A DNA stretch of 64,000 bases from Pseudonocardia autotrophica (GTDB lineage Bacteria > Actinomycetota > Actinomycetes > Mycobacteriales > Pseudonocardiaceae), in assembly GCF_000717175.1 (NCBI RefSeq), contig NZ_JNYD01000013.1, positions 62,001 to 126,000 on the forward strand, written 5' to 3'. Numbering within the stretch: the first letter of the stretch is position 1; each line of letters begins with the position of its first letter. Both the position numbers and the translations under genes were made by a program. This document shows positions 5,521-36,595 of the stretch, piece after piece. The notes beneath the pieces are model-generated. The model ran no database searches. It saw only the letters and a program-made list of their open reading frames with translations, and was not told where the DNA came from.

Positions 5521-5716
5521 CGCGAGTCGCGAGTTCGTGCACCGCGAGTCGGGAGTTCCGGCAGCGCGAGTCGGGAGTTCCGGCAGCGCGAGTCGGGAGT
5601 TCCGGCAGCGCGAGTCGGGAGTTCCGGCAGCGCGAGTCGGGAGTTCCAGCAGCGCGAGTCGGGAGTTCCTGCACCGCGAGTCGGCAGTTCTCGGTGCCCC
5701 GGACCGCCGACTCGCG
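5521..5716. repeat. 22-bp repeat array, cluster 1 (eight direct copies plus one inverted)
   Basis: Eight copies of a 22-bp unit (CGCGAGTCGGGAGTTCCGGC plus two bases) start at 5521, 5543, 5565, 5587, 5609, 5631, 5653 and 5675, exactly 22 bp apart. The core CGCGAGTC is invariant and the rest varies slightly. An inverted copy of the core at 5705-5716 can pair with the last direct copy to form a hairpin. The array fills the gap between recG and the convergent membrane-protein gene. The unit is not a multiple of three, so it is not coding. Confidence 0.9.
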
Positions 5717-12233: not shown

Positions 12234-12309
12234 GCGCCGCGCGCGTTCGTCGAGCTGGGTCGGCGCGCTTGTCGGCGGTGATCGTCGGTTGTGTGCGCCG
12301 AGGGTTGTG

Positions 12310-12968
12310 TGGAGCGCCGTGGGTGCACGGCGTCGCTGATCTTGGGGTGGCCGTCGCCGGGCAAGATCGCCGTTCAGGTGCAGCGAGGCTGGGCTCGGCT
12401 GCCTTGAGCGCACGATTCGACCAATCATTGGGCGACGTTGCCGTGATCGTTGTGGTCCTGCAGGGGGGCGACCCCGGCTGCCCTGAGCGCACGGCAACAC
12501 TGATCAGGTCGGGTACTTGGCGGTCATGATCGTCTTCGTTGTGCAGGGAAGGTGGGGCGCGCAGCCCTGAGTGCACCAGATCAGCGATCTTCCGAGCCGG
12601 TATCGAGACGTCTCCGGGCTCGGCCGACTCAGCTGCCCTGAGCGCACGGCTTCGCCGGCCGCCGGAAGGCGCGGTCATGATCGTTGTTGAAGTGCACCGT
12701 GTGTGGGCGAGCCTGCCCTGAATGCACCGCAACACTGATCGCGCGGTGCGCTGAGCGGTCGTGATCGTCTTTGTCGTGCAGGGATGGTGGGCCGCGCAGC
12801 CCCGAGGGCAAGGAACCGGCGATCAGTCGAGCCGACGCCGAGACGCTCCCAGCGCGGTGGGCCGGGGGGCTTGAGCGCAGGGCATCGCCGATCACGGTCG
12901 ATCATGATCGCATCGTTTAGTGCACTGATGGTGAGCTTCGCTGCCCTGAGTTCACGGGGCCAGGGACC
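12310..12968. repeat. Degenerate repeat array left of the DUF559 gene
   Basis: The 819-bp gap between sepIVA and the DUF559 gene has no credible gene. It holds at least five related 62-63-bp units starting TGATCG at 12444, 12527, 12678, 12762 and 12905. Each has TGATCG, then GTGCA (often GTGCAGGG), then CCCTGAgTGCAC or a variant, then CGATC or TGATC, a nested inverted repeat. Unit starts pair up as 12444/12678 and 12527/12762, so the array is a degenerate tandem duplication of about 234 bp. Further partial copies lie at 12320-12443. The last 84 bp before the gene show no clear unit. Confidence 0.75.
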
Positions 12969-13052
12969 TCTTGAGGCCCTTCCGGGCGCGGTGGGCGGTG
13001 CCGGATTCGAGAGCCGCGGAACCGGCGCGATCGCGCTGCCGTCCGAGCGCGC

Positions 13053-13895
13053 ATGGATCTCTCCCTCCCCTTCCTCGGCTCGGAGGCGACGGCCACCGGC
13101 TCGCTCACCCGGGGCGCGCTGCGCGGGCCGCGCTTCCGCAGACTCCTGCCCGACGTCTACGTGCCCGCAGACCTGCCCGTCGACCTCGCAGTGCGTGCCC
13201 GGGCGGCCGCGGTGTGGGCGGGGAAGGGCGCCGTCGTTGCCGGCTGGGCCGCCGCGGAGCTGCTCGGTGCGTCGTGCGGGCCCCGGGACGCGCCCGTCGA
13301 CCTGATCATCCGCGGCGGAACGACGAGGTCGCCGGCGGGTGTCCTGCTCCGGCGGACCAGGCTGTGGAGCGACGAGACCACGCACCGGGCCGGGGTGGAG
13401 GTCACGACGCCGGCTCGGACGGCCTTCGACGTGGCCAGGTGGGCTCCGGACCTCGTCGAACAAGTCGCGGGTGTGGACGCGGTGGCCCACGTCTGGCAGC
13501 TCGAGGTCGACCGGATCCGCTCGCTGTGGCGACGGCACCTCGGCGCACACGGCAGCGCAGACCTGGCGGAGGTTCTCCGGCTCGTCGACACGCGGGCGGA
13601 GTCGCCCATGGAGTCGCGGATCCGCGTCGCGCTGCACCTGGCCGGGCTCCCACGTCCGCGGGTGCAGCACCGGGTGGGTCCGCACCGGCTGGACCTCGCG
13701 TATCCGGAGGCGCTGCTCGGCGTCGAGCACGACGGCCCGCACCACCGCGAGGCCGAGCAGGCGCGGCGGGACCTGGAACGAGAGGCGTTCCTCGCCTGCG
13801 CAGGCTGGCGGGTGGTTCGGTTCGCCTCGTGGACGGTGCTGCACGAGCCGGATCGGATCGCGCGGGAGGTCGGAGCGCTCCTCGCGGCGTCGTGA
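13053..13895 (+). CDS. AbiEi-like N-terminal / DUF559 (Vsr-like) endonuclease-domain protein
   Basis: 280 residues. Residues 1-70 resemble the AbiEi_4 winged-helix region common in actinobacteria (RFRRLLPDVYVP, AGWAAAELLGA). The C-terminal 90 residues form a DUF559/Vsr-type PD-(D/E)XK-like domain: HRLDLAYPEALLGVEHDG keeps the Asp and Glu-x-Asp expected for catalysis, and GWRVVRFASWTVL is the family ending. The substrate is unknown. It is not paired with a recognisable toxin or antitoxin gene. Instead it is embedded between two arrays of related degenerate palindromic repeats, and its TGA stop forms the first bases of the first right-hand unit. It interrupts the usual sepIVA - DUF177 neighbourhood, suggesting insertion. 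Confidence 0.82.
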   Translation: MDLSLPFLGSEATATGSLTRGALRGPRFRRLLPDVYVPADLPVDLAVRARAAAVWAGKGAVVAGWAAAELLGASCGPRDAPVDLIIRGGTTRSPAGVLLRRTRLWSDETTHRAGVEVTTPARTAFDVARWAPDLVEQVAGVDAVAHVWQLEVDRIRSLWRRHLGAHGSADLAEVLRLVDTRAESPMESRIRVALHLAGLPRPRVQHRVGPHRLDLAYPEALLGVEHDGPHHREAEQARRDLEREAFLACAGWRVVRFASWTVLHEPDRIAREVGALLAAS

Positions 13896-14344
13896 TCGAC
13901 GATCGCGTGCATTTACGGCGGCGTCGAGGACCGCGACTGCACCGAACTAGCGATCATGTCGAAGGGGTGGGCGGGTCGCGGCTGGTGATCGCCAGTCCCG
14001 TGCAGTGGCGGCAGCCCGAACGACCACTGCTGCACCACGTCAACGATCATGGCCGACCAGCCCACGCGCTGCTCGTGGCGTCATGATCGGCGATCGCGTG
14101 CACCCATGGCGGCGGCCGTGACCGTGGCTGCACCGAGCCGACGATCATGGTCGGGTTGCTGGTGGCGCGGGCTGCCGCCAGGCGTGATCGCTAGTTCCGT
14201 GCGCTGATGGCGGAGTCGACGGCCATCGCTGCACCGAGTCGACGATCATGGCTGCGGCGACCGGCCTCAGGCCTCGTGATCGGCCTTCGCGTGCATCGGC
14301 GGCGGTATCAGCGCCCCTCATCGCAAAGGACCGACGATCATGGT
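13893..14344. repeat. Degenerate palindromic repeat array right of the DUF559 gene
   Basis: Five units of about 65-67 bp start at 13893, 13986, 14084, 14185 and 14278 (period 93-101 bp), separated by 25-34-bp variable spacers. Each begins TGATCG and ends CGATCATG, so the ends are inverted repeats. Most also contain an inner GTGCA...TGCAC pair. This is the same architecture as the left array. The 534-bp stretch to the ParA-like gene holds no credible gene. Confidence 0.8.
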
Positions 14345-15596: not shown

Positions 15597-15641
15597 GCGG
15601 AGGGCGGCGCCCGTCTCCGCGGATCGCCGTTCCGGTGTCCC

Positions 15642-15768
15642 GAAAGTGCCGACTCGCGCTACCGGAACTGCCGACTCGCGGTGCGGGAACTGCCGACTCG
15701 CGCTGCCGGAACTGCCGACTCGCGCTGCCGGAAGTCGCGACTCGCGCTGCCGGAGCTGCCGGCTCGCG
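15642..15768. repeat. 22-bp repeat array, cluster 2 (six copies, reverse orientation)
   Basis: Six copies of the 22-bp unit in reverse orientation, with the core GACTCGCG at 15651, 15673, 15695, 15717 and 15739 and a variant GGCTCGCG at 15761. It is the reverse complement of the cluster-1 unit. It begins about 45 bp after the ParA-like gene and ends about 60 bp before the DUF177 gene. Confidence 0.9.
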
Positions 15769-35611: not shown

Positions 35612-35715
35612 CGCGAGTCGCGCTGTGGCCCCCGCGAGTCGGGAGTTCCGGCACCGCGAGTCGGGACTTCCGGCACCGCGAGTCGGGAGTTCCGGCACCG
35701 CGAGTCGGCACTTCA
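35612..35715. repeat. 22-bp repeat array, cluster 3 (five direct copies)
   Basis: Five copies of GCGAGTC-type units at 35613, 35634, 35656, 35678 and 35700, in the same orientation as cluster 1, just after the third PII gene. The first unit is one base short and most divergent. With cluster 4 it brackets the ATPase gene in opposite orientation. Confidence 0.88.
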
Positions 35716-36464: not shown

Positions 36465-36595
36465 GGAACTGCCGACTCGCGCTGCCGAAGCTCCCGACTC
36501 GCGCTGCCGAAGCTCCCGACTCGCGCTGCCGGAGCTCCCGACTCGCGCTGCCGGAGCTCCCGACTCGCGGTGCCGAAGCTCCCGACTCGCGGGGT
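36465..36595. repeat. 22-bp repeat array, cluster 4 (six copies, reverse orientation)
   Basis: Six copies with GACTCGC at 36473, 36495, 36517, 36539, 36561 and 36583, exactly 22 bp apart, the reverse complement of clusters 1 and 3. It starts about 20 bp after the ATPase gene and ends about 45 bp before the ffh promoter. Confidence 0.9.

Follow-up and report, generated by a model that had tools for sequence, protein, structure and literature searches.

What connects a DUF559 gene with the palindromic repeats that surround it? The question is raised by a stretch of 64,000 nucleotides from Pseudonocardia autotrophica (assembly GCF_000717175.1, contig NZ_JNYD01000013.1, positions 62,001 to 126,000; hereafter the window). 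Here, a DUF559 gene at 13053-13895 is bordered on both sides by palindromic units (12279-12825 and 13893-14340), just as the original prediction, made from the letters of the window, had stated. It had also proposed a functional link between the nuclease and the repeats. Such a link is very probable, as it is supported by matching flanks of DUF559 genes, by palindromes anchored at their stop codons and by repeat types common to related nucleases at unrelated loci.

Association of DUF559 genes with palindromes in Pseudonocardia

Genes were called with our own codon-usage script. From 91 DUF559 loci, 84 distinct proteins were obtained, and removal of flanks shorter than 60 nt left 83 loci, which represent a part of the DUF559 genes in the 60 genus genomes (more exist) and are not independent (79 of 3,326 pairs are syntenic). 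Because some of the 318 control genes come from regions that hold DUF559 genes or units, the control is conservative. The 5' and 3' flanks matched each other (score >=36) at 31/83 DUF559 loci, compared to 3/318 control genes. At 18/83 loci, a palindrome started no more than two bases from the stop codon (controls 5/318), and at 11/83 loci a TGATC...GATCA palindrome of exactly 64 bp began at the stop (controls 2/318). In addition, the motif GGAACC was present 20-45 nt 5' of the start at 38/83 loci and 8/318 control genes. The remaining DUF559 loci are without such flank or stop signs at these thresholds; the window locus itself scores 32 in the flank test and the P. terrae locus 21.

The palindrome of the window (GTGC type) also accompanies DUF559 genes, flanking or adjoining them, at differently neighboured loci of other species: in G022, G004, G047 and G006 (by eye with the same neighbour gene) and, by partial matches, in G024. 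At many Pseudonocardia DUF559 loci the palindromes differ in sequence from this one; often there is one at each end, and often the 3' copy begins with the stop codon. The palindromic units observed are mostly 64 bp long, others about 56 or 46 bp, and start with TGATC, TGAG or TAGAC. Outside the genus, 29 loci were fetched, of which 28 had a gene that could be recognised and 26 could be scored on both flanks; there were no more than weak hints of such an association.

Some of the unit-flanked DUF559 genes (L372 and L389 in G004, L368 and L388 in G022) look interrupted or truncated and are perhaps decaying copies. In G043 (L405), the DUF559 gene is preceded by an array whose repeats are of yet another type, GAGGGGCAC...GATCATG...ACCCCTCG.

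Palindrome types and nuclease lineages

In a tree of 76 proteins, several sister pairs have the same unit type. Among non-syntenic pairs, a shared repeat in the near flanks (score >=26) was found for 40% of 30 pairs with at least 70% protein identity, for 6% of 207 pairs with 60-70% identity and for about none below 50%. A second 64-bp family (TTCCGA type) has the form TGATCGTTCCGA-N40-TCGGAACGATCA and occurs in 106 copies in G029, 72 in G011 and 39 in G004, with 0 control matches in all 60 genomes. In P. kujensis and G048, DUF559 genes have copies of it on either side. The unit ends abruptly at 64 bp, with information near zero outside, and 8 of 15 neighbour spacings equal 72 bp; some inner positions show a small pairing excess, e.g., position 15 with 58% vs 36%. 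Judged from these sequences, different nuclease lineages of the genus appear to carry different palindromes, and close relatives tend to share a type.

In the genome of the window (G000), most GTGC-type units lie far from the island DUF559 gene. Its other seven DUF559 genes have no unit of this type within 7-10 kb, and the other 20 unit clusters that were fetched have no adjoining DUF559 gene. A coincidence of gene and units was at first favoured since the other seven genes are without them, and was dropped once other genes showed palindromes of their own. At least one of the seven (C18) carries a second-family unit instead.

Structure and dispersal of the 64-bp unit

The unit is an exact 64-bp palindrome with the half-site TGATCR-N8-GTGCR-N5-GGY (N8 and N5 being looser bases), a 10-base middle and the mirror image of the half-site. 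With at most two mismatches, the half-site pattern was found 74 times in the window, compared to 17.5 +/- 4.3 in shuffles, and 0 of 100 shuffles reached 74. The window's genome contains 62 places with at most three mismatches at the 22 box positions, whereas the reversed-pattern control gave 0. In 21 regions of this genome, a weight matrix detected 67 units (65 above 35 bits) and none in the reversed sequences. All 67 lie outside called genes, with an overlap of up to 6 bp permitted. Of the 20 other unit loci fetched, none is located between divergent genes (background 70/244 gaps, p = 0.001) and 9 are located between convergent genes (background 35/244 gaps).

Copy number differs strongly within the genus. 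P. terrae has about 60 units (116 strand-matches among 150 candidates scored), and in the survey of 60 genomes at least 20 strand-matches were found in 11, at least 88 in four and none in 35. Outside the genus, 40 genomes were scanned with the strict unit pattern: 12 had a single match and the others none. Array size also varies at the same place between close relatives, e.g., one unit vs seven (one of them weak).

The symmetry of the palindrome appears to lie at the DNA level. In the first family (65 units), mirrored positions showed no consistent covariation above shuffled halves, and the RNA folding energy is somewhat low (mean z -2.1). No GTAG tag was present in the unit flanks inspected. 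Direct repeats that would indicate a target-site duplication, as left by a classical IS or MITE, were not noticed by eye at the unit edges, and no recent empty site was seen at base resolution.

Two local arrangements of units were also observed. At C22 of the window's genome (L089, 7678-8296), seven units are regularly spaced by 102-104 bp, which suggests array growth by tandem duplication. In G033 (L103-L109), the intergenic repeats are mosaics: at most of the seven places, the 64-bp unit is succeeded by a second palindrome, similar in length, and by GC-rich blocks that align over 250 bp.

The island between sepIVA and the ParA-like gene

In the window, the gap between sepIVA (end 12233) and a ParA-like gene (start about 14430) is occupied by an island consisting of a palindrome array, the DUF559 gene and a second array. 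It contains ten 64-bp units above 35 bits in the weight matrix, one 63-bp unit and three weak remnants. The stop codon TGA of the DUF559 gene forms the first three bases of the unit at 13893. The features are as follows; the palindromic units are given without a strand.

12279 to 12342: first palindromic unit of the upstream array, 64 bp, 51 bits
12364 to 12427: 64-bp unit with degenerate right end, 27 bits, matched part 12365-12414
12444 to 12506: 63-bp unit, 25 bits
12527 to 12590: 64-bp unit, 43 bits
12621 to 12657: unit remnant, 14.7 bits, weak
12678 to 12741: 64-bp unit, 32 bits
12762 to 12825: 64-bp unit, 43 bits
12856 to 12894: right half of a unit, 12.5 bits, weak
12916 to 12961: unit remnant, 13 bits, weak
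13018 to 13023, + strand: GGAACC leader motif, 35 nt 5' of the ATG
13053 to 13895, + strand: DUF559 gene, 280 aa, with a predicted AbiEi-like part and a predicted Vsr/I-Bth0305I-like nuclease
13893 to 13956: 64-bp unit that starts with the gene's TGA stop codon, 48.5 bits
13986 to 14049: 64-bp unit, 46 bits
14084 to 14147: 64-bp unit, 50 bits
14185 to 14248: 64-bp unit, 51 bits
14277 to 14340: 64-bp unit, 38 bits

The original prediction described two arrays of related repeats beginning at 12310. The repeats are indeed related, but both arrays belong to one 64-bp family and not to two, and the first unit already starts at 12279. The island was further thought to interrupt a sepIVA-DUF177 neighbourhood. 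The island does lie next to sepIVA, but its other neighbour is the ParA-like gene, and DUF177 follows after that.

From other genomes, 20 loci with sepIVA were fetched; two had no parA on the contig, which left 18 readable gaps. Gene and units occur together in two of them (a same-species genome and P. terrae), neither in 15, and a unit without the gene in one (G029); a gene without units was not seen in any of the 18. P. terrae, with a SepIVA 96% identical to that of the window, has 12 units and a DUF559 gene 90% identical in the gap, whereas in P. kujensis, also with a 96% identical SepIVA, the gap has 159 bp and contains neither. Gene and units are both missing from the site of the nearest relative. 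In G029, one 29-bit unit (L202, 10830-10890) lies in a 927-bp gap, and by eye a second unit-like stretch follows just after it. Units can thus occur at this gap without the gene. Arrays in relatives lacking the gene had been named as evidence that would speak against the proposed link. Such evidence exists to a small extent: 15 of the 16 gene-less gaps are free of units, and G029 is the exception.

In G022 (L206, 9346-9407) and G033 (L203, 9249-9309), units are located upstream of sepIVA at a distance of a few hundred bases, and the sepIVA-parA gap itself is free of a nuclease gene. In P. oroxyli (L193), the gap measures 178 bp, is without this unit and by eye contains a seemingly different palindrome of about 63 bp, TGATCCACTG...GTGGATCA.

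The DUF559 protein and related systems

The product of 13053-13895 belongs to DUF559 (PF04480, 2.8e-10) and has AbiEi-type PADLOC matches; NCBIfam gave only weak matches. Fold prediction proposes an AbiEi-like N-terminal part followed by a nuclease like the catalytic domain of Vsr and I-Bth0305I. Residues E187, D214, E225, H231 and D240, candidates for the E, D, x, H, D catalytic set of EDxHD homing endonucleases, are invariant in 72/72 sequences. Named relatives are labelled as endonuclease, DUF559 or very-short-patch-repair protein. DUF559 genes were present in 56 of 79 sampled genomes of the same bacterial class. A collection of 50,697 phage records contained no match, and plasmids gave seven distant matches, none of which spans more than 65% of the protein.

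The AbiEi-like N-terminal part is shared with the antitoxins of type IV toxin-antitoxin systems (PMC7319586); unlike them, the DUF559 protein is fused to a nuclease, and no AbiEii or other toxin gene adjoins its gene in the window. From the Vsr mismatch endonuclease it differs by the additional AbiEi-like part and the linked palindromes. With the EDxHD homing endonuclease I-Bth0305I (PMC3943268), it has the predicted fold of the catalytic domain in common, while the AbiEi-like part, the lack of a match in the phage collection and a candidate target in the form of a dispersed palindrome family set it apart. The protein resembles a homing endonuclease in its predicted fold and may cut and home like one.

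The original prediction also drew an analogy to REP/RAYT systems, which holds for the architecture and fails for the enzyme. REPtrons (REP palindromes with TnpA-REP/RAYT; PMC8266576) likewise comprise dispersed intergenic palindromes, arrays, a flanked cognate gene and several types, and the many intergenic copies in the Pseudonocardia family, often in arrays, correspond to this. However, the REPtron palindrome is short (20-50 nt) and follows a GTAG-type tag, whereas the Pseudonocardia unit has 64 bp and TGATC ends. HUH/Y1 transposases (PF01797) gave 0 matches in G000, G100, G004, G028 and G030, and any match in only 5 of the 60 genus genomes. We did not adopt a hairpin or REP reading of the units because consistent mirror covariation and a Y1 transposase match were both lacking. 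Although its working resembles that of a REPtron, the system lacks the defining transposase and tag and does not count as one.

A proposed homing-like mechanism and its alternatives

We lean towards the view that the DUF559 protein and the 64-bp palindrome form a cognate pair with a homing-like mechanism. Most likely, the protein would bind the palindrome as a dimer, with the AbiEi-like part reading the boxes of each half-site. The Vsr/EDxHD-type nuclease domain might then cut or nick at the palindrome, and repair of the break could be templated by another unit or by a unit-flanked copy of the gene. In this way, solo units would be spread across intergenic DNA and the gene could come to lie between units, i.e., homing at dispersed palindromic landing pads. 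Statistics establish the pairing of gene and palindrome; dimeric binding, cutting and movement through repair are inference. The unit without a gene in G029 slightly lowers the probability of this view and of the broader proposal below, and raises that of two alternatives. The original prediction had named units equally common far from DUF559 genes as a reason to give up the link, and taken literally this holds: most units lie at a distance from these genes, and the other seven DUF559 genes of the genome are without this type. The same is expected of a repeat that is scattered and has a single cognate gene, and the C18 gene has a unit of the second type.

Alternatively, the units might be operators. 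An AbiEi-like repressor would bind the inverted repeats, the dispersed units would be selected regulatory or chromosome-organising sites, and the nuclease domain would act elsewhere. We consider this unlikely, though not negligible. For AbiEi antitoxins, binding to inverted repeats of the own promoter is described (PMC7319586), and consistent hairpin covariation is missing. Moreover, box positions are 81% identical in aligned arrays of G000 and P. terrae, compared to 58% at other unit positions and 59% in the DNA outside, percentages that may be inflated by aligner bias. Operators would, however, hardly be expected to tend toward gene ends and to avoid divergent gaps, to number 0 in some congeners and about 60 or 100 in others, or to begin at a stop codon instead of in a promoter. 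It is rather improbable that the units are non-autonomous elements of another, unrecognised transposase, with DUF559 genes as frequent passengers or neighbours. This would account for the varying array sizes in close relatives, the 20 clusters without a DUF559 gene beside them and the unit in G029, but not for a stop codon that can be part of the unit, nor for the tendency of close DUF559 relatives to share a palindrome type even at non-syntenic loci.

Two further explanations are very improbable. DUF559 genes and repeats might simply gather in the same intergenic gaps because these are tolerant, without being linked in function, in agreement with the location of all 67 units outside called genes. 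Such hot spots would give neither matching 5' and 3' flanks nor a common palindrome in related nucleases nor a palindrome at the stop codon. Alternatively, the nuclease might destroy foreign DNA, the units serving as decoys, memory or protected sites. The PADLOC AbiEi matches and the predicted nuclease fold would fit this defence unit, whereas the neighbours in the window are SepIVA-like (DivIVA-like) and ParA-like genes, not a modification enzyme or toxin, and the phage records are without a match. No evidence in support of the defence role, which had been suggested from the sequence of the window, was found.

Returning to the cognate pair, it is tempting to speculate that Pseudonocardia hosts diversified selfish elements, a broader proposal to which we give slightly less than an even chance. 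A homing-endonuclease-like protein dimer would recognise a palindrome specific to its lineage, with 64 bp in the types studied best, and seed intergenic DNA with it. The palindromes would serve as target, as homology arm and, via the stop codon, as part of the gene, and successive lineages would have evolved new specificities. In these soil bacteria, many of the homing-endonuclease-like genes lie between copies of their own repeat type, with more copies dispersed among other genes, which points to a selfish partnership of nuclease and repeat of an undescribed kind. No DUF559 or AbiEi-type nuclease tied to palindromic repeats appeared in titles or abstract openings among the literature matches listed, a search with most subscription journals outside its range and not a proof of novelty. 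If true, a repeat-based role would explain the DUF559 genes of Pseudonocardia and would mean that the REP/RAYT arrangement arose independently around an unrelated enzyme. Nuclease specificity could then be read from the genome, as each gene would come with its own candidate target and with natural specificity variants.

Other repeats in the window

Separate from the palindromes, a dispersed tandem repeat with a 22-bp CCGACTCGCGSTGCCGGAACT-like unit forms arrays at 5521-5690, 15640-15768, 35632-35708 and 36472-36591 of the window. A 20-base pattern of this repeat gave 20 matches in the window, compared to 0.07 expected.
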